Under the pieces are notes generated by a model. That model saw only the letters and a program-made list of their open reading frames with translations. It had not been told where the DNA came from and did not search any database. Position numbers and translations under genes: made by a program. Positions 7,165 through 62,113 of a stretch of DNA of 64,000 nt are shown one piece after another; the stretch's first letter is position 1; each line of letters starts with the position of its first letter. The stretch covers positions 1-64,000 of the forward strand of contig JADGJT010000057.1 in NCBI GenBank assembly GCA_027604005.1, in the 5' to 3' direction. This DNA comes from Dinochytrium kinnereticum. Its lineage: Eukaryota; Chytridiomycota; Chytridiomycetes; Chytridiales; Chytridiaceae.

Positions 7165-8977
7165 ACGTCATAATCCCCCTTTTAACTCCAGCCCTTGTTT
7201 CGCTGAGTTTTTTATTAGTTTTCTGGTTTTTAAAGCTTTTCTTGGAATCTCTTAGGGGTTTTCTTTTTCTCCTCGCTGTGTCCGCGGAGGATTTTGTTTT
7301 ATTTCTTTGCCTTAACCAACGTTTGGTTTTTCCGTTGCTTTAATCCTTCTACCTCTTTTTCTTTTTCTTTTTTTCTTTGTTTTTTTGCAGTGCTGCTACT
7401 TTTTATTCCTTTTCACATCATGTTCCCCAGCCCCCAAAAAGAAAACAGAAAAAAAAACACTTAATTAAAAAAAAATTGAGGGGAAATGTTTGCTTCTCCC
7501 TTTCTTTCCTCTCAACCTCAAACTTCCTTGACCTCGACTTCCTCCCTCCCGCCTTCCTTCTTCCTGCTATTTAACTGACCTTTACAGTTCTTTTTGTTTG
7601 TTGCGAAATTTTCTTGGTACCAAGTATTTTTCGTGGGCTGGCCCTTTTTTTCAACAACTTTTATTCCACACACCTCGTCTTTTTTTTTACCTTACCGTCA
7701 CATTTGCTCTTTATTGGTGAGTGGTTATATGTGGTTTAAATGTTTGTTTGTCGGGTTTATGTTTCTGGTTTCTTTTTACCACTATCCGATGGTCTCGTCT
7801 CTCCTCTTCTTTTTTTTTTTCTTCCCTCGTTGTTTTAATAAAATTCTAATAGGGTCCTCATCAGTGTCGTGGTTTAGTCCTTTTTTTGTTGTTTTTCTAT
7901 TCTTTATAATTGGAGCTGAATGGCCGCCACCCTTTGGTGGATGGTCGAAAGAGGGCCGAGGTGTTTTCTTCACCGAACAGCGAGTCCGTTGATCGACCGA
8001 CCTAACCCGACCCAAAGGGACGGGACGGAGTATGGTTTGTTTGTTTGCCTTTTTTTCTCCCTCTTCCGTTGTCTTTTGGCTGTATGGGTTTCTTAAATTC
8101 CCACAGGTTGGTTGACATCAGTGTTGATGATGTCAGAAGAGTTTCATCAGTGCGTGACCACCCTATAACTGTCTAAAGGGTCAAATAGTTTTGACGGAGA
8201 CCATGAAAACCAAATCCCTGAATCCACCTCTATTGTGTGTTGTGTTGTGGAGCTCGTTGATAGCTTTCGAATGACACAGCACTTTTATCGATACAATGCT
8301 CCATCGTCGAGAAAAGGTCAAAAAAAAAAAAAAAATCAACAAAAGAGCCGTTAATTGTTGCTAATAACCTAGCTTACAACACCTATAGCCCCCCAAAAAC
8401 TTGGTCGCCCTCAATTGAGGAGAGAGAAAAAAGCATCACATAGCATAAATTGATCCGATTACTCTATTGCGCAAAATGAAACACTGGAGCAAAACTCAGG
8501 TTTTTAGGCTATTACTTTGCTTATTGATGAGATATCTTCCAACGCTTAACCTGGTGTCCCAAGGTATTTTGAGGCATTTATTTCTGCATTTTTCTCCCCT
8601 GGCGGAAGCTAACAACAAAAATAGCCCATGCCACTGCTTTTTTTAAAACGCTCTTTAAGCTTCTTTTAGGAGATGAGGGACACGTATTTTTGTCGTAACG
8701 ACCCGCAAGTGAGAGATGAACATTAGAGTAGCGGATGATTATTAGTCAGGTTTTCCTTGGAGCCGCACATCCGCTCCCATGATGGAGAAAGCCGCCAGGA
8801 TTGTTGATTTCGAAATGTCATGGTCATTGGAGCCAAAATAGTGGGTCATCATGGTTGCTTCCATGGGTTGCTTCCTCCCATCCACAATAAAAGACCACAG
8901 CACATCGCCTGGACTCGCATCAAGCAACCATCAGCAACAGAAACACACGTCAAGTGAGCCTTTACAGAAACAGCATC
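7165..8977. other. Long T-rich intergenic stretch
   Basis: There are 1.8 kb between GUT2 and the first acyltransferase gene. The first ~900 bp are strongly T/pyrimidine-rich with long homopolymers, and the open frames there encode only Phe/Ser/Leu-rich noise. From ~8200 the composition becomes normal. A perfect 12-bp palindrome CCTCAATTGAGG lies at 8409-8420. I recognise no gene, RNA or mobile element. The segment ~8230-8340 and the region to ~8740 could be an old dispersed repeat, but no second copy occurs in this window. Confidence 0.4.
8886..8893 (+). promoter_or_regulatory. TATA-like box of acyltransferase copy 1
   Basis: AATAAAAG lies 92 bp upstream of the ATG at 8978. The downstream paralogue has TATAAAG at nearly the same distance (95 bp). 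The shared spacing, rather than the motif alone, supports a core promoter element. Confidence 0.4.
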
Positions 8978-10509
8978 ATGTCCACCCCCAGCAACAAAAC
9001 ACTCGCATTATCTGGGATGGAACGCTCCATGGCCATGTCAACTGGCTGTGTTCGCATCGCCCACGCCCTCCGCGTCACAGGTCCTCTAAACCCAATTCTC
9101 GATCACGTCGTCCCAGCCTTCCGAATGACTTTCAACACTCATCCTCGTATGCGTGTAAGGATGTCAAAGGACCCGGCGACGCCTTTCACAGCGACCGTAG
9201 GAAACCTGTTGGACATTGAGGAGGTTGAGAAACTTGTTGAGGTTAACCGGGAGGCGGGGGGTTTGGATGAGGTTGAGGGGTTGGAAGTTTGTAGGAGGTT
9301 GGTGGAGGCGAGATGCAACCTTCCTACGGATCGATCCGTCGATTTGCCTTTCAGCCTCATGGTTTTAGTTCGGAGCGATGAGAAGACGACGCTCATTCTC
9401 TTTTCGGATCACTTTATGAGCGACGGATTCAGTGGTCTAATCGTTCTCAACGACATTCTTAAGCACCTCACGACCCTTATCACATCTACCCACGAAGGTG
9501 CAACCCCACCACCCCAACCAAAAGAGCTTCCCCTTCGCCCGTCGATCTACAATCAAGTCCGACCACCCAGCCTCTTTACTTCTCTTGTTGACACTATGAT
9601 CAGCACCGTTGCCATCCCCATTACCAAATCAGAATTCAACAAACACATTCCTATCCTACCCATCAACTCAAACCAGAAGGACTTCAAGATCCCCGTTCCA
9701 CTCAACTCCAGTGCTACCTTGCTACGGACTGGAAAGCCTGAGAACCTAACTTCCGCTCTCGCGAGATGTAGGGAAGAGAAGGTCACACTTAATGGGGCTA
9801 TTATGGCTGCACTCTTGATTGGGTTTGAGAGGGTTGCTGGAATTAGAGAAAAGGATGGAAAGTTCCGGATGAAGATTGACTCGAACTATAATATGCGGGG
9901 GAGGGTGAAGAAACCCTTTGAGGAGAAGACGGTTGGGTTTAATGTCATTGCTAATACTATGGACAGTTGGGCAAAGAATGGTGTGCACCTTGACGTGAAG
10001 TTTTGGGACGCAGCAAGGGATGCAAAGAAGATGACTGGTGAGTTCTTTTTTGTTCCTTGTTTTCCCCGTATTCTAACCTTTTGAATTTACTTATAGACTC
10101 TGGTCTCACTAGCTTCACCACCTCTGCTCATCTTGTCTACGCCCACAACAGGTGCAACGCGAAAACAGTTAAAGCAGACTTCAAGGCCAAGTCCTGTATT
10201 ATTTCCGACCTAAGCGTGTCAAACCTTGGCAGATACCCTTACCCCACCGCTCATAATCTCCCAAAACATCTTGGGGATATTCGCGTTGACGGACTCCATC
10301 TTTACAACTCCATGCCGCATCTCTCATATAGTGCCATCTTTTTTGTGACGAGCGTTAGGCAGATGGATTATTCGCTCATGTCAAAGTTTGAGGATGAGGT
10401 TGGGAAGAAGGTGTTTGGGTTTGCATGTGATATGATTGAAGCCATTGGGAGTGTTGGAAGTGGCGAGACTTTGAGGGAGGCTTCAACACGTGTTTTGGGG
10501 AGGTTATGA
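8978..10509 (+). CDS. HxxxDG acyltransferase-like protein, tandem copy 1
   Basis: Two exons (8978-10037 and 10097-10509), 490 aa. It belongs to the CoA-dependent acyltransferase / NRPS condensation-like superfamily. The catalytic His motif is HFMSDG (HxxxDG) in 'LFSDHFMSDGFSG', ~140 residues in. A C-terminal 'SVSNLGRYPYP' corresponds to the conserved S-N-x-G strand seen in alcohol O-acetyltransferase/PapA-like members. No carrier-protein or adenylation domain is attached, so it is a stand-alone enzyme. I infer O- or N-acyl transfer to a small alcohol or amine; the substrate cannot be read. The start is the first ATG (MSTPSNKT). An upstream in-frame GTG at 8954 is rejected because this is a eukaryotic gene. 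Its paralogue follows directly, and the 5' halves are nearly identical (see the repeat features). Confidence 0.75.
9053..9576 (+). repeat. Near-identical paralogous tract, copy 1
   Basis: This 524-bp piece inside acyltransferase copy 1 matches 11137-11660 at a constant offset of 2084 bp with only four mismatches by eye. Sequence on both sides, within the same two genes, is clearly more diverged. The sharp edges suggest recent gene conversion rather than a uniformly young duplication. Confidence 0.85.
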
Positions 10510-11040
10510 TGATGCTTTTTTTGTTCTTCCAAGTTCTTTTTGTTTTCAACGCGATTCATTGTTTAGAATCGTCCTCATTGATTAAATATATATGATGTTT
10601 TGCTATTATTCTGTATCGTTTTTGTTTGCCATAGTGTGTTCTGCATGCTTCATGAAACTGCGACTTTGGACATGTCGGCGCATCTTTCTGGCCGTCACTG
10701 AAATTTACATTGCTGATTCAGAAGGCAGTGTCGGGGCAGCTTCGAAGCATCTTGTTAGAGGGGGGCTTTAGACCGCTACTTCTTGTGTTGCGGCCCTTGA
10801 TTATCTGCCGATGTTAAGCATGATCCTGCTGACAGTGAGACGCTGTCTACTTGATTTCGCCGCCTTATGTAGCCATTCCCTAGCCTTGCAACCCCAACCT
10901 CATCGACTTGGGACGGGCGAGTTGTGGAGTTTGGCTCGTAAGCATTATAAAGGTTTGCGGAGTGTACTTTTCATGGGTGATCATGGGAGTCACACCGAGA
11001 TCAGCCATAAAAGCATGCGCTTGGCACACCATAAATCGTA
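10510..11040. other. Spacer between the tandem acyltransferases
   Basis: This 531-bp stretch holds the 3' flank of copy 1 (an A/T-rich stretch with ATTAAATATATATG near 10580) and the promoter of copy 2. It has no coding exon. It is not recognisably similar to the region upstream of copy 1 except for the TATA position. Confidence 0.45.
10946..10952 (+). promoter_or_regulatory. TATA box of acyltransferase copy 2
   Basis: TATAAAG lies 95 bp before the ATG at 11041, in a G/C-containing context. The equivalent position upstream of copy 1 carries AATAAAAG. A TATA promoter would fit an inducible accessory gene. Confidence 0.5.
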
Positions 11041-12606
11041 ATGTCCAGCTCAAGCATCGCCATGACGGTCTCCACAAACCCCACGTTCGAAATCGCAGGC
11101 ATGGAGCGCTGTATGGCCATGTCCACTGGCTGCATGCGCATCGCCCACGCCCTCCGCGTCACAGGTCCTCTAACCCCAATTCTCGATCATGTCGTCCCAG
11201 CCTTCCGAATGACTTTCAACACTCATCCTCGTATGCGTGTAAGGATGTCAAAGGACCCGGCGACGCCTTTCACAGCGACCGTAGGAAACCTGTTGGACAT
11301 TGAGGAGGTTGAGAAACTTGTTGAGGTTAACCGGGAGGCGGAGGGTTTGGATGAGGTTGAGGGGTTGGAAGTTTGTAGGAGGTTGGTGGAGGCGAGATGC
11401 AACCTTCCTACGGATCGATCCGTCGATTTGCCTTTCAGCCTCATGGTTTTAGTTCGGAGCGATGAGAAGACGACGCTCATTCTCTTTTCGGATCACTTTA
11501 TGAGCGACGGATTCAGTGGTCTAATCGTTCTCAACGACATTCTTAAGCACCTCACGACCCTTATCACATCTACCCACGAAGGTACAACCCCACCACCCCA
11601 ACCAAAAGAGCTTCCCCTTCGCCCGTCGATCTACAATCAAGTCCGACCACCCAGCCTCTTCACTCCTCTTGTTGACACTATGATCAACACCTTCGCTGTT
11701 CCCATGCTCAAATCAGAAGTGGCTGGCCACATCCCTATTCTACCCATCAACTCCAAACAGAAAGACTTCAAGATCCCAGTACCCCTCAACCCAAGCGAGG
11801 CGTTCATGCGAACAGGAAAAGCAGAGAACCTTACTTCCGCTCTTACGAGATGCAGGGAAGAGAAGGTCACCCTACATGTCGCTATTCTGGCTGCACTCTT
11901 GATTGGGTTTGAGAGAGCTGCTGGGACGAGAGAAAAGGATGGAAAGTTTCGGATGAAGATTGATTCGGATTTTAACATGAGGGGAAGGGTGAAGGTCCCA
12001 TTTGAGGAGAAAACGGTTGGGTATAACGTTGTGGCTAGCCCGATGGAAGTCTGGGCAAAGAATGGGGTTGACTTTAGTAAGAAGTTTTGGGATGTTGCGA
12101 GGTCTGCAAAGCAAATAACTGGTGAGCTCTTCTTTCTTTTTTATTTTGTGGAAAAACTCTATTCCAGTTTAACTCATGTCTTAACCTACATAGACTCCAT
12201 TGTGAATAACTTCACGACGATTGCTCAAGCAATCTACGTTCACCACAGGTCGAACGCCAAAACTGTCAAAGTAGATGTCGAAGCCAAATGGTCTATCTTT
12301 TCTGACCTCAACGTTTCGAACCTTGGCCGATATCCCTACCCCACCGTTCATAATCTCCCAAAACATCTTGGGAATATTCGCGTTGAAGGTCTTCATCTTT
12401 ACAATTCGCTGCCCCACATTGCCTATGCCGCCATATTCTTTGTGACGAGCGTTGAGCAGATGGATTTTACCATGATGTCAAAGTTTGAGGAAGAGGCAGG
12501 GAGGCAAGCGTTTGGGTATATTTGTGATATGATTGAGGCAATTGGGAGTGTAGGAGGAGACGAGACTTTAAGGGATGCTTCAACGCGTGTCTTGGGGAGG
12601 TTGTGA
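11041..12606 (+). CDS. HxxxDG acyltransferase-like protein, tandem copy 2
   Basis: Two exons (11041-12121 and 12194-12606), 497 aa. Same family as its upstream neighbour, with the HFMSDG active-site motif and the 'NVSNLGRYPYP' strand both present. The 72-nt intron has consensus GTGAGC...TACATAG ends at the same site as in copy 1. Because it is a multiple of three without stops, the unspliced message also reads through (521 aa). The aligned intron and the poor Phe/Tyr-rich readthrough show that it is an intron. The N-terminal ~20 residues and the second half differ from copy 1 at many positions, so the two enzymes may differ in acceptor or acyl donor. Substrate unknown. Confidence 0.75.
   Translation: MSSSSIAMTVSTNPTFEIAGMERCMAMSTGCMRIAHALRVTGPLTPILDHVVPAFRMTFNTHPRMRVRMSKDPATPFTATVGNLLDIEEVEKLVEVNREAEGLDEVEGLEVCRRLVEARCNLPTDRSVDLPFSLMVLVRSDEKTTLILFSDHFMSDGFSGLIVLNDILKHLTTLITSTHEGTTPPPQPKELPLRPSIYNQVRPPSLFTPLVDTMINTFAVPMLKSEVAGHIPILPINSKQKDFKIPVPLNPSEAFMRTGKAENLTSALTRCREEKVTLHVAILAALLIGFERAAGTREKDGKFRMKIDSDFNMRGRVKVPFEEKTVGYNVVASPMEVWAKNGVDFSKKFWDVARSAKQITGELFFLFYFVEKLYSSLTHVLTYIDSIVNNFTTIAQAIYVHHRSNAKTVKVDVEAKWSIFSDLNVSNLGRYPYPTVHNLPKHLGNIRVEGLHLYNSLPHIAYAAIFFVTSVEQMDFTMMSKFEEEAGRQAFGYICDMIEAIGSVGGDETLRDASTRVLGRL
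11137..11660 (+). repeat. Near-identical paralogous tract, copy 2
   Basis: Partner of 9053-9576 (offset 2084 bp, four mismatches seen by eye in 524 bp). It includes the codons for the catalytic HFMSDG motif in both genes. Confidence 0.85.
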
Positions 12607-15728: not shown

Positions 15729-17720
15729 ATGAAAAGGACAAGATCGTTAGAGGACGTTTTTGAGCTTGTGCGTGGGAACAACTTGGATGGCCTTAAAGCC
15801 TTGCACGAGTATCACTTCCAAGAGCTAAAGAATGGAGAACTTGATCCAAAGGATTCTTTCCGGCATGGATTTGAGGATAACATGAGGTGCCCATTACACA
15901 CATTTATGATTCTCATGCATCCAGGGATGTACGCAACAACTCCTTGCTCCATGTCGCATGCAAAGGAGGTAATATGGACTTTCGGGTTTCATTAAGTAAT
16001 TATCACATAGGTTCGGAGGCTGTTGCTGAATGGGCCCTCGCAAATGGCGCCAACCCAGACCTGAGAAACTGCACAGGCGACACGCCTCTGACATTAGCTG
16101 TTCAATGTGGGCACGTTGGCGTTGCAAAAAAGGTGTTTGTTCGCTCTATATTTTAAGCACTGAACATTGTTATCAAGTTGATGCAGGCAAAAGCTGATGG
16201 TAGGATTTGCTGAGCCTTCTTCCCTTTACAACTTACGACACAAAAACAAAGTAAATCTTGCCAACGACCATGGAAACACTGCTCTTCATTATGCTTGCTT
16301 TTGGAGACGAAAAGAGCTTGCCTTGCTCTTAGTAGAAAATGGAGCTATATTGAATGTGAAAAACAAATATGGGAAGCTTCCCCTTGATAGGGCAATGATG
16401 TTTAAGCAAATATTAGAGGGTGAGGTTATTTTTAACGATGTTTTAACCATAACACCAAAAAAAGACGTGGCTATTAGTCACGGTGTCAGTGTACTTGAGA
16501 TAGACGCCAAAGGTGATTCTGAATACTATTGCAAAAGGGTCTCACGAGAAGCTAGTGCGGTCAACAAAAGAAACGGATGGCATGGCAAAACTTCGATTCC
16601 TTCAAAGCTGTATGTTCAAGTGGAAATAATCTTGCTAAACGAAGCTTTAGTAGAAACGGACATCGAGATCCCCTTTAAGGCGATGACCGTGATGAGACCT
16701 GCTTTCTTTTCTCTAAGGGCAGAGGTCATGATGGGGTCATGGAATTATCGGCAGGTGGTCGTAAAACGGGCGGTTATGCAAGCCCACAGCAACGAAGAAG
16801 TTGCCTTATTTAAAAATGAGGCATCCACTTTGAGGTATACCCCCTTAAAAATATGTCTCACGGCTTAGGAAAAAGCTACATATTAATATACTTCCTGCCA
16901 TTGGGATATGCACAATTCCACCTAACATATCAGTTGTGACCGAATTTATGAGCAATGGCAACCTGTATGATTATTTGAGAGACCCGTCTGTGGTTATGGA
17001 TGTTCCGGAAGCCATACGCATAGCGCTTGAAGTTTGCGAAGGTTAAATACCATTCAAATTCTTTCTTTTATTCTACAAGTCAATTTGCTTAACTGTTCAT
17101 CACCCAGGGTTACAATTCCTTCACACTTGCTTACCACCAATCTATCACATGAATCTCAAGACAAGGAATGTTTTGGTAACTTTCTCACAACTGAAAGATA
17201 GTGCTTAAGACTCCAAATAGTTGGACGAGAACAACACGATAAAACTTTCTGAGTATGGATATACAAACACCATATTCAACTATATCAACGCATGGCGAGA
17301 GCAAAAAAGCAAAATCTACTTTGAGCCTGAAGTGATTGCTCCCGAAGTCTTTTCCAGCATTGAGAGCCCGCTGGTGTACACCGCAGCGATGGATGTTTAT
17401 GCATTTGGTATGGTGCTGTACGAGATTATATGTAGAGAGGACCCATTCTTACCCGGCGACGCCGAGGAGTTTATTCAAGAGGTAATTGCATTTTACTTTG
17501 ATACCTTTTCTGATGTATACACTGAATAGGTTATGCAACACGACCTCGTGCCAATCATACCCGAGTATGTCCCTGAAGAGCTTGTAAGTCATACTCACGG
17601 CACTCTATTGTAACCTGCATCATTTTGTAGGCGGGAGTAATGTCCTCATGCTGGTCAAAAGACCCCTCTGCCAGACCGAGCGTAAATAAAATAACATCAG
17701 CCCTCAAGCCTTTTTCGTGA
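15729..17720 (+). CDS. Integrin-linked-kinase-like ankyrin pseudokinase
   Basis: Nine exons (15729-15886, 15925-15968, 16011-16132, 16194-16834, 16869-17041, 17108-17175, 17221-17481, 17530-17583, 17631-17720), 536 aa. Ankyrin repeats fill residues ~35-200; 'HGNTALHYACFW' and 'KNKYGKLPLDRA' are close to the corresponding ILK repeats. The ~100-residue linker is longer than in animal ILK (~450 aa). The kinase-like domain keeps an ATP-site lysine context (VVVKRAV), an APE motif (IAPEVF) and 'DVYAFGMVLYEI'. It lacks a normal Gly loop, has HMNLKTRN where HRDLKxxN is expected, and SEYGYT where DFG is expected, so it should be catalytically dead, like ILK. 'LQFLHTCLP' before the loop again mirrors ILK. 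In animals ILK scaffolds PINCH and parvin at integrins. Its partner here is unknown. Introns are as short as 34-47 nt. Confidence 0.85.
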
Positions 17721-17952: not shown

Positions 17953-20143
17953 ATGTCACAACAGTTTTATCCCGTTGCAATCGATAACGTCTCCTCCGAA
18001 GAGATTTGGAGCCCGAGTGACGATAATCAGGCTTTGCGCGGTAACGATTTTTCCTCGGAGACGGGAGGCCTTCTTGGATCGGATCGGAAGGGAAATGGGA
18101 GGGGCCTAGCATTGCCTCAGGATGGGTATGAGGAGGACGATGACTATGGGAACGAGCAGGACTTCCACATGGCTAGGGAGAAGGTTTTATCTCTTTTAAG
18201 ACTGGGACTTCCTTTTCTGATTCGTTTCGGCTTCAGGAGTTTGAACGGCAAAGGCGATGGCTGATTGCTACAGGTGCCACTCTGGCTTTGATGATACTCG
18301 GGACAACAATTGCCTTGGCGATTCTGTTGTCCAAAAAACCTCTCCCAATTGATAACGGGCCTGTCAATAATGGGACATATCCGACCGTTATCTTGATATC
18401 TTTAGATGGATTCCGGGCTGATTATTTTGATAGGGGCCTTTCGCCGGCATTGGCTTCTTTAGGTATCTGCCTTATTTTACATGGCATAAGATCTTACATT
18501 GTTAGCCTATAGTGGCGTCCATGCTGAGTACCTTAAGCCTTCATTTCCCAGCATCACTTTCCCAAACCATTATACCCTGGTTACTGGTATGAGCTCTGAT
18601 GTTTGTGGCTTTTAAAAATTATTCTAGGTCTCTATCCTGAATCGCATGGGATCGTTGCAAACGTATTCTTTGATCCTACTTTGAACGATACTTTTGTTTA
18701 TGTTGACGGAGAAAAAAATGGGCAGTCTAAGTGGTGGGGAGGCGAGCCGGTATGCATTTTCCCTCTTCCTCAACAGTTTACATGGAGTTTAAATGATATG
18801 ATAATCTTTACTGCTGGTTTTGTCAAACTGCATAGGCTTTTAATGTTTGCAATCTAACCTTCATTTTGCTGGCGTTTCTTTTTCACTAGTTATGGGTTAC
18901 AGCAATCAAGCAGGGACGTATGTCAGCGACATGTATGTGGCCTGGGTCTGAAGCACCGATCCAGAATATTCGACCCAATTACTGGCTGAAGTACGATGGA
19001 AAAATGACTCTTGAAGCCCGTGCGAACCAGATTCTCAAATGGCTAGATCTGCCTCTTCGAGAGAGACCATCATTTCTCACTCTGTATGCACCTGATGTTG
19101 ATTCCGCTGGGCACACGTTTGGTCCCAATTCCAAGGCGGTGAATGACTCGATTGTGGCTGTTGACCGCATGGTTGGTCAAATTATGGCCGGCATCGCCAC
19201 TAGGAATATGACGAACAGTGTCAATATCGTTGTAGTCAGTGATCATGGAATGGCTGAAGGCAATACGAATTGGATTTTTTTGGATGATTACGTAAGCTAT
19301 GACAGTATTCACGTTGTAAACAACTTGGTCGTGCACATTTACCCAAAGGAAGATCAAGGTGATTTCAAACAGTCTTTTGCCTATTCAAGCCTGATCTATT
19401 TTGGCGTATTTCCCCGAACTAATGAACTTAATTTTACAGATTCCGAGAAAATATACGCTGCCCTCAAGGAGGCAAGCCTTAAATCTGGTCACTGGGACAT
19501 TTGGAAGCGCGAGGAGGTCCCCTCCTATTTCCATTACTCCAACAATAACAGGATCGCGCCTTTCGTCGCCCTTCCTCAGAAAAATTGGGGTTTGGCTATG
19601 AGGAAAGAGTACGAGTCCCGACCGCCTTCTCCGGTGCGCGGATTGCATGGTTATAACAATTCCGACGTTGAGATGCGCGCAATCTTTTTGGCCTCCGGGC
19701 CAGCCTTCCGCCAAACATTTGTAGAGCTCTTCGTGAACCATACTCTCGTAGAAAGTCACATTGGGAGTCATAACGCAAGCGCCATTCACGACTTAACGTT
19801 AGCACATGAGGCTCTCGGCGGTGCTACGGGTAGTGGGGGTCACAAGAACCTCTCCACACGATCGATTCAGCTGGCGCATGATGTGGGCGATCTTTTCCGA
19901 CGACAGCACGTGGAAGAGTTTGACGAAGCTCAGGATTCGGCAAAAGTGATCGAGACACCGAATAAGCCGCTAGAACTTGCTTCCGAACTGGCCTTGAATG
20001 AGGCAGTAAGGAACAAGGTCATGCCCCCTTTCAACAACATTGACGTTTATAACGTGGTCTCTCATATTCTGAAAATCGAGCCGGCGGCCAACAACGGCAG
20101 CGTCTCAACTGTGGAAATGCTCCGACCGTGGCTGAGATACTAG
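17953..20143 (+). CDS. Type II membrane nucleotide pyrophosphatase/phosphodiesterase (ENPP family)
   Basis: Six exons: 17953-18183, 18237-18462, 18506-18586, 18628-18749, 18890-19358 and 19440-20143, 610 aa. Seen: an acidic cytoplasmic N-terminus of ~95 residues, one membrane span (IATGATLALMILGTTIALAI), then the two-zinc alkaline-phosphatase-fold catalytic domain. Metal and nucleophile residues are present in order: LISLDGFRADY (Asp), SITFPNHY (Thr nucleophile), APDVDSAGHTFGP (Asp, His), VVVSDHGMAE (Asp-His), and the final His in RGLHGYNN. There are several N-x-S/T sites on the extracytoplasmic side. There is no nuclease-like or somatomedin domain, unlike animal ENPP1-3. Probably hydrolyses nucleotide or nucleotide-sugar phosphodiester bonds in the vacuole or at the cell surface, as yeast NPP proteins do. 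The family is secure; the substrate is not. Confidence 0.92.
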
Positions 20144-23763: not shown

Positions 23764-27673
<3,910 letters not shown>

Positions 27674-38462: not shown

Positions 38463-38472
38463 NNNNNNNNNN
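38463..38472. other. Assembly gap (10 N)
   Basis: A run of ten N, probably a place-holder of arbitrary size. It breaks the 3' end of the TCP11/SOK1 gene. Confidence 0.98.
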
Positions 38473-48625: not shown

Positions 48626-48895
48626 GGGTTGGGTAAAGGNNNNNNNNNNCGGTAGAGGAGAGGTTGAGAGTTGTGTTTTGTCTTTATTTTAACCCTTTTC
48701 TAATTCTGCTCTTTCTTCGTTTTTGCCGTCCTTGGGCTTTGGTTTCTGCGAAACGAAAAGGTTTACGAGGAGACTGGATTCGTTTGGGAGCAGTATTCTC
48801 CTGAGACTGGAGAGGGGAAACGGTCCCATCCTTTCACGGGTTGGACGTCACTTGTGGTTCTTATCATGGCTGAGCAATACCCTCGCCTGTTTTAA
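44166..48895 (+). CDS. CWH41: Mannosyl-oligosaccharide glucosidase (ER glucosidase I, GH63)
   Basis: Removes the outermost glucose from Glc3Man9GlcNAc2 on nascent glycoproteins in the ER lumen. About 17 exons, the first being 44166-44427. Seen: an N-terminal signal anchor ('[18 protein letters not shown]'), then '[18 protein letters not shown]' and the GH63 beta-sandwich. The (alpha/alpha)6 barrel carries the acid region '[16 protein letters not shown]' and '[14 protein letters not shown]'. The catalytic-base region is '[18 protein letters not shown]', followed by '[19 protein letters not shown]'. Lumenal N-glycan sites are present (e.g. NAS near residue 42). An alternative ATG at 44112 would add 18 residues before the anchor. 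The intron before the last exon contains an N-gap. All conserved blocks are present, so the gene is intact. Also known as GLS1/MOGS. Confidence 0.93.
48640..48649. other. Assembly gap (10 N) in an intron
   Basis: Ten N preceded by an 18-T run and ~28 G. It lies between the last two exons of the glucosidase I gene and does not disturb the coding sequence. Confidence 0.98.
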
Positions 48896-59200: not shown

Positions 59201-62113
59201 CAGACTAACGGGTTCGTCGTCGTCTGAAGATAAAGCTCTCGGCACTGAAGTTTTCTTCTGAGCCGTGGTTCTGCGAACTTCGCTATAATGCTCTTGGCGA
59301 AGCTGGGCCATTAATCCCGCGGATTTAGATAGCTTTTTGGGCTTCTTCACAGGTTTAAACAAAACGCCGAGATTCCTTTTTGGAGGAGGGACTACCGATA
59401 CATTTGGAGGCTCCACATCTCGTTTGATGAAGTCTGAAATGATAGGCATGGCTGGTTTGAAGATTGCGCTTGATTTTTCACTCTTTGTAGCAATGACCGA
59501 TTCTTGAGGTTTAATTTTAACAGTGGAATTCAGTGTCTTTTCATCCATTTCTAATTTATCCGACCGAGAGGCTTTGACCGGAATTTCAAGCTTAGAACTA
59601 ATTTTCCCCTCCGCATGCCTAGCAAGTGTCTTATCTTGTCCTAACAGGAGCCTAGTGCTTGTCGAACTTTTATAACGTTGCAAAAGAAGTTCTATCATAT
59701 GTTTCTGCGATGAAGAGAGATGAGATTTCAATACTCCAGAGGTATAACTGGCCAAGGACTCTATAATAGTAGGCTCTAAACGCAAAGAATGCGACACTGC
59801 GATTTGAATCATGCTGACAAGAACCGAGACTGTTTGATTTCGGAGTGACTCAGAATGAACTCTGAACCATTTTGCCCCTGCATCTATTGCGTTCGAAAAC
59901 GGAACGGACACAGCCTTCAGAAATTTCGGAGAAGGGAATATCGATATAAAATGGTTCATAACAATGGCAGATAGCTTGAAAGTCCTCTCGATAGTTTGAG
60001 TAACGAAATGTTTTAACTTCAAGTCCTGTTTTGCCCAAGTAACGCTTGACGTGAGTACTGCCGTAATAAAAGGCCAAACTTTGAGCCATACAGTTTCTTT
60101 ATCAAATTCTTGAGAGGAGTCGGAGAAGATATCATCAAATAAGGCCAAAAGCATATCCAAAATTTTGATCGCGCTTTTCAGCAATGGGGGTCCAAGAGTA
60201 CAGTAATCTCGGAAGGAATCGAGCAGGCCGGAATAAACTGCCCAGAAATCTACGTCTACAAATAGTAGATGGGAAAGAGCATCTGTTAATCTTATAAAGT
60301 ATTAGCAAAGTTTTCGATGAAGTGAAAAACGAACTTTTCCGTCGATGTGATACTAGAGATAAGTTTTCGACCAGAATTAGATATGCTCTCGTGCGGTGAA
60401 GCTACGCAATAAAGAATGGTAGGTCCGATTCGGCCAAAAACAGACGGGTCAGCACTTGCTAGAATGCATGCTATTGCTTGAAGAATGGTTTGGAGGGACT
60501 CATTGAAAGCAATATCCTGAGGTACTACGTCCACCGATGGTAGGCTAAGATGATCCAGTAGGTATAAGCGGCTGAATCTTGTCAAAATTCCAGTGCTTAG
60601 TGATCCTGGCAACTTTATGGGCTTCGCTAGGAAAGCCCATAGCTCCAGCAAAATATCAGGCTTAGAAGTACTATGTCCTTTTGAGTTATAGAAGGCCTCA
60701 TATGCATTCTCCATCTTGCTGAAATCCGATTCGATCAAGTCAAGTACATTCTGAGTCGCCGAAAATTCGGGGGTTTCCAATGTTGCGCTTATCCTTAAAT
60801 TCATGATTACAACAGTCTGCAAAAAATCGACATTCGCAGAGCCTGCACAGACTTCGGTCAGCAGAGGAATCGTGACATCATTCATGAAAACCTCTTTCGC
60901 TTCCTGGCACAAATTACCCGAATACTTCATTAAGAGGTCCAAAAAGACCGAATCTTCTGCTTTTGCCTTCAGAGATCTGATAGCAACCAAAATCCATTTG
61001 AAGCAAAATTCTGTTTTATCTTCCCCTTCTATATCATTGATCTCCGATGTAAACCCCAATTTATCCCTAGACGAGAGAGTCGAAAAGTCCTCATGTTTAA
61101 AAATAGCATGCAAAGCCTTAGCGGCAACATCCTGGTCTTCAAGCCAGCTCTTTCCATTCCCACAGAACTTGCAGAAACATTGGAGAACACGCCAAAACAC
61201 TTCTTCGTTCGAAACCAAAGTGCGGTTAAACAGCTTTTCTTCAATAGACGGGAAAATTCGACGAAAGAGCTCTAACGCATCTCCGGTTAAGGCATTTATG
61301 ACGCAAGTTAAGCCGGTCCATAATGATAATTCGTCGTCCGTTACATTGTAGGATAAGACAGATTTGCTGCGGTCGAAAACAAGATTTACCAGTATAGATA
61401 CGTATTCTGTAAGCTGCTCCAGTTCTTCTGCTCCTGTAGGATGTGTGGCATATGAAGAACTAATGCATTTAATTGCCCATACCCTGGCATCCGCTTCCTT
61501 ATGAACAGCGAGGAGGAGAAGGCCCGGCAAAAGCCCAGTCTTTAAGCGCAAAGGTTTTTTTCTTTGAATGGAGGTCAAGACACGAATAAAAAGTGAATCA
61601 ACGCCTTTGTCCGTTAGGGAATCTGGGCGTCTTAGAACTTCTGATGCAGATATCTGAAAGCTCATTAGTTTAATGACGTTGATTTAAAAGCTGACCAGGA
61701 ATAAGTTTTTATGATGAGTCTCGAAAGTGTCGGAAGTTTCGATGTAAGCCAGGAGGCTGTTAAATACTTTTGTATGCCTCTTAACATCCCTCGCATTCAA
61801 CTTTTTCCATAGATCATGATGAAATTGCGATGCGGACAGCTTTAATCTATCCTTGAACTCTTGATACTCTTTCTCTTATTAGTAGGAATAGCTTACATTT
61901 CTTACCAAGAAGGCAATCGGCACACTTCAAGTTATCATCTAAGAGGCTGGCAGCCGCGAGTGTGTCCGAATCAACCAAAGACCAGTCACTTATCCATAAT
62001 ATTGAGACCTCTATCAGGCTATCGGGATTGTTATGTATAAAGCATTCTCCGTCTGCCAGGATCCGTCTCCGGAAGCTTTCGATCGTATCCGTCGAAACAT
62101 TGGCATTCAGCAT
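56264..62113 (-). CDS. SEN1: Sen1-type superfamily 1 RNA/DNA helicase
   Basis: Nuclear helicase that terminates RNA polymerase II transcription of short non-coding RNAs and removes R-loops. The start is MLNANVSTDT at 62113 and the stop at 56264-56266; ~1,800 residues over many exons. The N-terminal ~1,000 residues are the helical (HEAT-like) Sen1 N-domain (62113-59900), followed by a disordered Lys/Ser-rich linker. The C-terminal helicase carries Walker A GPPGTGKTKT (58196-58213, interrupted by an intron between Gly and Gly-Lys), 'ILICAPSNAACDEIL', Walker B DEAGQAVEL (~57310-57365), 'QYRMHPDISSFPAFQFY', and the final 'RRMNVALTRAKKSVFVVG'. There is no zinc-ribbon or S1 domain, so it is Sen1 rather than Upf1. 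It is convergent with BCP1. Confidence 0.93.

Follow-up and report, generated by a model that had tools for sequence, protein, structure and literature searches.

An integrin-linked kinase homologue with a conserved PINCH face and an apparently decayed parvin face in the chytrid Dinochytrium kinnereticum

Introduction

Animal adhesion is built around integrin, integrin-linked kinase (ILK), PINCH and parvin, and the members of the ILK complex depend on one another in animals. Several docking contacts of ILK have been assigned to individual residues. Sections of PMC3871693 report that the substitutions H99D/F109A/W110A break binding of ILK to PINCH, with H99, F109 and W110 being the contacts of PINCH LIM1, and that M402A/K403A breaks binding to parvin; a section of PMC7949147 gives V386/T387 as the paxillin-binding pair of ILK.

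Outside animals, a section of PMC5042518 describes basal fungi as invariably devoid of integrin, FAK and Src, and reports that Orpinomyces and other Neocallimastigomycota encode ILK-PINCH-parvin (IPP) proteins, all three of them. A section of PMC3305314 places the origin of PINCH before the split between Capsaspora and animals, and a portion of its species list contains no chytrid. A sequence-only reading of the DNA analysed here had pointed to an ILK homologue in a fungal genome; that a fungal ILK would be unheard of is not right, given the Neocallimastigomycota reported in that section of PMC5042518. A fungal ILK is thus not new in kind, as other zoosporic fungi are already reported to have IPP proteins.

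Here we describe a locus in a stretch of 64,000 nucleotides from Dinochytrium kinnereticum (the window), which, judged by its sequence, contains a real, intact fungal ILK. We favour the reading, with a probability of about 0.6, that the gene encodes an orthologue of ILK in a chytrid fungus, a catalytically dead scaffold whose ankyrin face would hold a LIM adaptor, without integrin and probably without parvin. What is new here is an ILK family that carries no ILK label in eight chytrid genera, together with what seems to be a fungal ILK branch uncoupled from parvin.

Results

Structure of the gene

The whole gene lies on the plus strand at 15729..17720, and its spliced model comprises 13 exons encoding 483 aa, interrupted by 12 introns of 34-66 nt, all of which are GT..AG. 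Four of the 12 acceptors (ATCAAG, ACAAAG, AAAAAG and ACGAAG) have no pyrimidine before the AG, and therefore these junctions rest on homology. Splicing was guided by comparison with P0001, a protein from Chytridium lagenaria that is 62.8% identical to the Dinochytrium protein over 484 columns. This comparison revealed three extra short introns in the linker, so that a first model of 10 exons and 524 aa was replaced. The length of 536 aa proposed in the sequence-only reading is accordingly corrected to 483 aa, while its gene ends (start at 15729, stop at 17718-17720) and the motifs that it cited (HGNTALHYACFW and KNKYGKLPLDRA in exon 5, 16252-16419, and FLHT in exon 10) were found in place.

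Exon 1 (15729..15886, plus strand, as are all exons) carries the start codon and the N-terminal part of the protein, exon 2 (15925..15968) the first clear ankyrin repeat, NNSLLHVACKGG, and exon 3 (16011..16132) ankyrin repeats. They are followed by the micro-exon 4 (16178..16199, acceptor ATCAAG), which encodes LMQAKAD and aligns with LLQYKAD of human ILK, and by exon 5 (16252..16419), which contains the ILK-type repeats NLANDHGNTALHYACFW and NKYGKLPLDRA. Codons H122 to W133 occupy 16269..16304, with H122, F132 and W133 corresponding to human H99, F109 and W110. Positions 16233-16400 match human ILK residues 87-142 at 48% identity, this match starting 19 bases within the intron before exon 5. 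The linker is encoded by exon 6 (16465..16512), which matches P0001, and exon 7 (16556..16609), where VRSTKETDGMAKLRFLQS is matched by VRETKDSDDMAKLRFLHA in P0001. The kinase-like domain starts in exon 8 (16645..16834), in which the VVVK lysine K246 is kept, and continues through the N-lobe and hinge (exon 9, 16869..17041), FLHT and the catalytic loop YHMNLKTRN (exon 10, 17108..17175, with N342 at the catalytic Asp position, 17152-17154) and EYG in the place of DFG (17251-17259), APE and helix F (exon 11, 17221..17481). Q435-E436, the counterpart of human M402-K403, forms the end of exon 11 (17476-17481); exon 12 (17530..17583) holds the remainder of the degenerate helix-G region, and exon 13 (17631..17720) the C-terminal part with Arg469 of ARPS and the stop codon.

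The deposited model of P0001 lacks part of the ankyrin domain, corresponding to the last part of exon 3 together with exon 4 of the Dinochytrium gene, and this gap is probably an annotation slip.

A Pfam scan of the 524-aa model recovered Ank_2 (E 4.8e-33) and PK_Tyr_Ser-Thr (E 1.4e-45). Taken together with the open spliced frame and the identity to P0001 from a different chytrid, these matches argue that the reading frame is beyond chance. The letters of the 524-aa model, whole or in part, were the basis of the PDB, Pfam and protein-collection searches, of the alignment with human ILK and of the residue counts. The ankyrin stretch matched to human ILK (residues 51-165) is identical in the 524-aa and 483-aa models, and the rows of the kinase tree begin after the linker, past the model differences; the kinase-domain query used against PDB includes some linker residues now assigned to an intron.

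Several other features of the window were recorded. Upstream of the gene, two neighbouring plus-strand ORFs (8891-10084 and 11035-12606) appear by eye nearly identical over much of their length and are probably a tandem duplication; the first of them is weakly similar to alcohol acetyltransferase (AATase, 18.7 bits, under the cut-off). Downstream, an exon of a Type I phosphodiesterase/nucleotide pyrophosphatase is found at 18890-20143 (plus strand), a protein kinase C-like combination of C1 domain and protein kinase at 25841-26908 (plus strand), and a SEN1 N-terminal domain at 60292-61683 (minus strand). Two runs of 10 N (38463-38472 and 48640-48649) are probably assembly gaps.

An ILK family in chytrid fungi

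A search of a protein collection recovered as relatives of the Dinochytrium protein P0001 from Chytridium, P0002 and P0003 from Rhizophlyctis rosea (separate records), P0005 from Borealophlyctis, and P0006, which has no source name. A search with the kinase part of P0002 yielded five more, P0113-P0117, which come from Thoreauomyces, Powellomyces, Geranomyces, Fimicolochytrium and Phlyctochytrium. The family thus has 11 members including the Dinochytrium protein and covers eight named genera, the 10 relatives being of chytrid or metagenome origin. Five models (P0001, P0005, P0006, P0113 and P0114) are incomplete and were counted wherever they cover a column. The database names of the nine relatives with a source name, as listed, are "kinase-like", "hypothetical" or "protein kinase domain-containing", and none of them bears an ILK label. 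The linker is common to the Dinochytrium protein and its fungal relatives.

Kinship with ILK

The Dinochytrium protein aligns with human ILK in register over its full length, with 36.7% identity in the ankyrin domain and 27.4% in the pseudokinase domain (524-aa model). When the human ILK ankyrin domain was used as query against the collected proteins and six-frame pieces, the Dinochytrium protein was the best of 112 matched sequences, with 103.3 bits in one stretch; ranks 2-8 were taken by fungal ILKs (92.2-72.7 bits), and the best non-ILK sequence reached 67.6 bits. P0001, with only 52.0 bits, and P0006 and P0113, absent among the best 40 of the 112, do not lead; the ankyrin domains of all three are incomplete. 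If scores are totalled over all stretches, ankyrin-array proteins reach up to 242.9 bits versus 104.0 for the Dinochytrium protein. Similarly, in a PDB search with the Dinochytrium ankyrin part the ILK ankyrin chains stand at rows 35-36 with a single stretch of 104 bits, the stretch scores of the top three chains being at most 49.8 bits. The corresponding search with P0002 has no ILK among its best 60 matches, which are mostly multi-stretch designed ankyrins. By single stretch, the sequence of the Dinochytrium ankyrin domain is closer to ILK than to other ankyrin proteins.

The kinase domain gives a mixed picture when taken as a single sequence. In a PDB search with the Dinochytrium domain, ILK (102.0 bits) falls behind CTR1 (114.2), KSR1 (113.5), a reconstructed Src-Abl ancestor (107.1) and B-Raf (104.7), whereas P0002 from Rhizophlyctis has human ILK first (154.8 bits versus 139.2 for CTR1); P0114, queried with its first four letters inexact, gives CTR1 128.0 and ILK 125.0 bits. 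The outcome of the best-match check proposed earlier is therefore mixed: ILK leads for the Rhizophlyctis member, CTR1 is just ahead for P0114, and best hits to non-ILK kinases, named there as refuting, are partly borne out by the Dinochytrium kinase domain. In a kinase-domain tree of 24 rows (the 11 fungal members, human ILK and 12 other kinases), the 11 fungal members group with human ILK at a support of 95/93, and they do so again at 98/96 once the VAIK stretch and the catalytic motifs are removed. Human ILK is the only animal ILK in the tree, because the protein collection, searched by alignment, listed 59 proteins of which none is named as an animal ILK. AU tests rejected placement of the Dinochytrium and Chytridium pair with KSR1 (p 0.008), with CTR1 (p 0.004) and with two TKL kinases of the Dinochytrium genome (p 0.0011); they did not reject human ILK beside CTR1 (p 0.133) or beside KSR1 (p 0.095). 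The stem of the Dinochytrium and Chytridium pair is long (1.08 changes per column), which may lie behind the weak single-sequence score to ILK.

Within the Dinochytrium genome, human ILK matched an ankyrin array on contig C40 first (53.6 bits, 35% identity) and the exon of the ILK gene next (52.8 bits, 48%); among kinase matches the best is on C274 (44.2 bits), the kinase exon of the ILK gene reaching 26.3 bits. P0002 gave 16 matches at E <= 1e-6, the strongest being a TKL kinase on C274 (58.4 bits), and at this threshold colinear ankyrin (60%) and kinase (43% and 34%) matches to P0002 occur only at the locus described here.

The proposal that this gene is an ILK homologue is thus upheld by the ankyrin domain, the full-length register with human ILK, the shared linker and the kinase tree, and the phylogeny that had been suggested as a check did not place it firmly with unrelated kinases. 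Orthology to ILK could not be proved from the kinase domain alone; the sequence evidence taken together makes it very likely.

Catalytic residues

The catalytic-loop Asp is lost in all 11 fungal members, being replaced by Asn in nine, Lys in one and His in one. The DFG Asp is lost in three, with Glu in the Dinochytrium protein and P0001 and Val in P0006, and is present in the other eight. The replacements noticed in the letters of this gene, YHMNLKTRN for HRDLK..N and SEYG for DFG next to an intact APE, are confirmed; as a family trait, loss of the catalytic Asp is general, and loss of the DFG Asp is confined to the three members named. The VAIK Lys is kept in seven of 11 members, the APE Glu in 11 of 11, and the ARP Arg in all 10 that cover the position. 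Arg stands in the place of the ATP-binding VAIK Lys in the other four, P0113-P0116 (Thoreauomyces, Powellomyces, Geranomyces and Fimicolochytrium).

Docking faces

All three PINCH contacts are kept in the Dinochytrium protein as H122, F132 and W133, and across the fungal family His is found in 11 of 11 members, Trp in nine and Phe in eight. The parvin pair M402/K403 is replaced by Q435/E436 in the Dinochytrium protein and by KK in P0001, and each of the nine members other than these two has M or L (eight and one, respectively) followed by K or R (six and three). The helix-G motif GMK/GMR/GLK, present in human ILK and nine of the 11 fungal members, is absent from all 12 kinases in the tree that are not ILKs. 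In both the Dinochytrium and the Chytridium protein, the motif surrounding the parvin pair is mostly gone. V386/T387 is replaced by IC in the Dinochytrium protein.

We counted conservation over 99 positions that human ILK shares with 75% or more of the nine other fungal ILKs. The Dinochytrium protein keeps 65 of 82 such positions outside human residues 385-430 and seven of 17 inside (Fisher p 0.0027, for a region chosen after the alignment had been inspected); it keeps 32 of 40 conserved ankyrin positions, and the ankyrin domain does not differ from the rest (p 0.25). From these residues, the parvin dock in the helix-G region of the Dinochytrium protein looks decayed and the PINCH dock preserved. 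Among the papers listed by a literature search, conducted largely outside subscription journals, none deals with docking surfaces in a fungal ILK, and as far as this search extends an ILK that retains the PINCH face but has lost the parvin face is undescribed.

Adhesion genes elsewhere in the genome

The genome searched comprises 22.4 Mb on 558 contigs. It encodes talin (C4, E 3.2e-33, with FERM-like head pieces nearby), vinculin (C271, E 1.0e-23), paxillin (C262, 106.5 bits) and an alpha-actinin-like pair of CH domains (C109, named by eye). Talin is kept with its FERM-like head pieces (C4:150000-154500) although no integrin was found. A Kindlin_2_N match at C4:153080-153277 was rejected as kindlin: its position is some 1.5 kb upstream of the middle domain of talin, in the same orientation and with FERM-like pieces between, and it is most likely the F0 domain of talin.

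Exon-by-exon searches without a positive control gave no match in the genome to integrin beta (PF00362) or integrin alpha (PF08441), in agreement with the earlier remark that fungi lack integrins. The parvin search, likewise without a positive control, produced no candidate in the genome, and the human queries missed even its other CH proteins. A tandem CH gene on C6, in which two CH domains are followed by a charged, coiled-coil-like stretch, was judged by eye not to be parvin, and CH matches on C2, C14 and C59 were set aside by eye only. PINCH was not recognised by an exon-by-exon LIM family search and human PINCH1 query. The family search gave 15 matches on eight contigs, of which the readable ones resemble, partly by eye, paxillin, a LIM-RhoGAP, CRIP-like and generic LIM proteins and none resembles PINCH; the best match of human PINCH1 was paxillin. 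Two multi-LIM genes considered as PINCH were not accepted, that on C262 because paxillin exceeds PINCH (106.5 versus 65.0 bits), and that on C37 because its matches are not specific (ISL1 43.0, paxillin 42.6, PINCH 37.2 bits). The absence of integrin, PINCH and parvin is weak evidence, because genes were matched exon by exon and, for integrin and parvin, no positive control accompanied the search. The genome check that had been called for thus recognised none of the three in weak searches and did recover talin, vinculin, paxillin and the alpha-actinin-like gene.

Discussion

Could the likeness to ILK be convergent, the gene being an ankyrin-TKL kinase unrelated to ILK? The higher kinase-domain scores of CTR1, KSR1, the Src-Abl ancestor and B-Raf, and the AU tests that permit a grouping of human ILK with CTR1 or KSR1, would fit this idea. 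We nevertheless regard it as improbable, as the single-stretch ankyrin match is ILK-specific, the protein is in full-length register with human ILK, the Rhizophlyctis member has ILK first, the helix-G motif is confined to ILKs in the set compared, and the kinase tree rejects joining the Dinochytrium and Chytridium pair to KSR1, CTR1 or the TKL kinases of the genome. Given this kinship and the loss of the catalytic Asp, the sequence favours a scaffold pseudokinase, as initially proposed, over an ordinary ankyrin kinase. If the protein were instead an active kinase whose catalytic site is atypical, it could draw on its retained VAIK Lys, on E264 as a candidate alpha-C Glu and on the Lys and Asn of its catalytic loop, but with Asn for the catalytic Asp, Glu for the DFG Asp, and the catalytic Asp missing throughout the family, we consider this very improbable. 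Mn-dependent activity has reportedly been claimed for animal ILK in PMC2932980. That the gene is a decaying relict without a present role is harder still to credit: the long stem of the pair speaks for it, and the open frame, the full-length identity to the Chytridium protein and the exactly kept PINCH contacts speak against it.

The most serious competitor, unlikely on our assessment, is that a complete ILK-PINCH-parvin complex is present, its PINCH and parvin genes having been missed through short introns, divergence or lack of assembly, and helix G having co-evolved with a changed parvin. The six-frame search works exon by exon, and the parvin queries were of poor sensitivity, because even the other CH proteins of the genome went unmatched; moreover, the PINCH face is fully kept, and sections of PMC5042518 report IPP proteins in gut fungi. 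On the other hand, no readable LIM match is PINCH-like, human PINCH1 finds paxillin best, and the parvin pair reads QE amid a surrounding motif that is mostly gone in both members of the pair.

In the preferred reading, that of a catalytically dead ILK scaffold, the ankyrin face would hold a LIM-domain adaptor, PINCH if it exists and otherwise another LIM protein, and would link it to the talin-vinculin-paxillin-alpha-actinin actin machinery; the scaffold would act without integrin and probably without parvin. The conservation of the PINCH face sits uneasily with the fact that no PINCH gene was recognised in the genome. More tentatively, it is possible from the sequences that ILK in the Chytridium lineage has become uncoupled from integrin as well as parvin and persists solely to scaffold LIM-domain proteins. 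If so, the ankyrin-LIM contact would be the most ancient element that the ILK machinery cannot do without, and the lineage would represent a natural separation of function for the ILK complex.

A fungal branch with ILK and actin-side adaptors, in which integrin was not found and the parvin dock is altered, may show which contacts are kept after loss of the receptor. With such a branch, the role of ILK before adhesion came to be based on integrin becomes a question that can be tested in culturable chytrids; the branch also leads to an ILK family that spans eight named fungal genera and is listed in databases under names without an ILK label.

Comparison with known systems

Human ILK (PDB 3F6Q for the ankyrin domain, 3KMU for the pseudokinase) has the same domain order as the Dinochytrium protein and 452 rather than 483 aa. 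The two share the ankyrin block NxHGNxxLHYACFW...NKYG, the loss of the catalytic Asp, the VAIK Lys, the APE Glu, the ARP Arg and H99/F109/W110. Unlike human ILK, the Dinochytrium protein has Q/E for M402/K403, I/C for V386/T387 and a longer N-terminus, and unlike in the human system no integrin was found in its genome. Neocallimastigomycota have all three IPP members according to a section of PMC5042518, whereas PINCH and parvin were not recognised in the Dinochytrium genome, a comparison made by description and not by ILK sequence. The ILKs of Rhizophlyctis, Borealophlyctis, Thoreauomyces, Powellomyces, Geranomyces, Fimicolochytrium and Phlyctochytrium resemble the Dinochytrium protein in the linker, the ankyrin block and the loss of the catalytic Asp, but differ from it in keeping the parvin pair as M/L plus K/R and, in Thoreauomyces, Powellomyces, Geranomyces and Fimicolochytrium, in having Arg for the VAIK Lys. 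Closest of all is P0001 from Chytridium lagenaria: it has KK rather than QE, and its deposited model is short of part of the ankyrin domain, but it is the orthologue of the Dinochytrium gene, and its helix G is decayed too.
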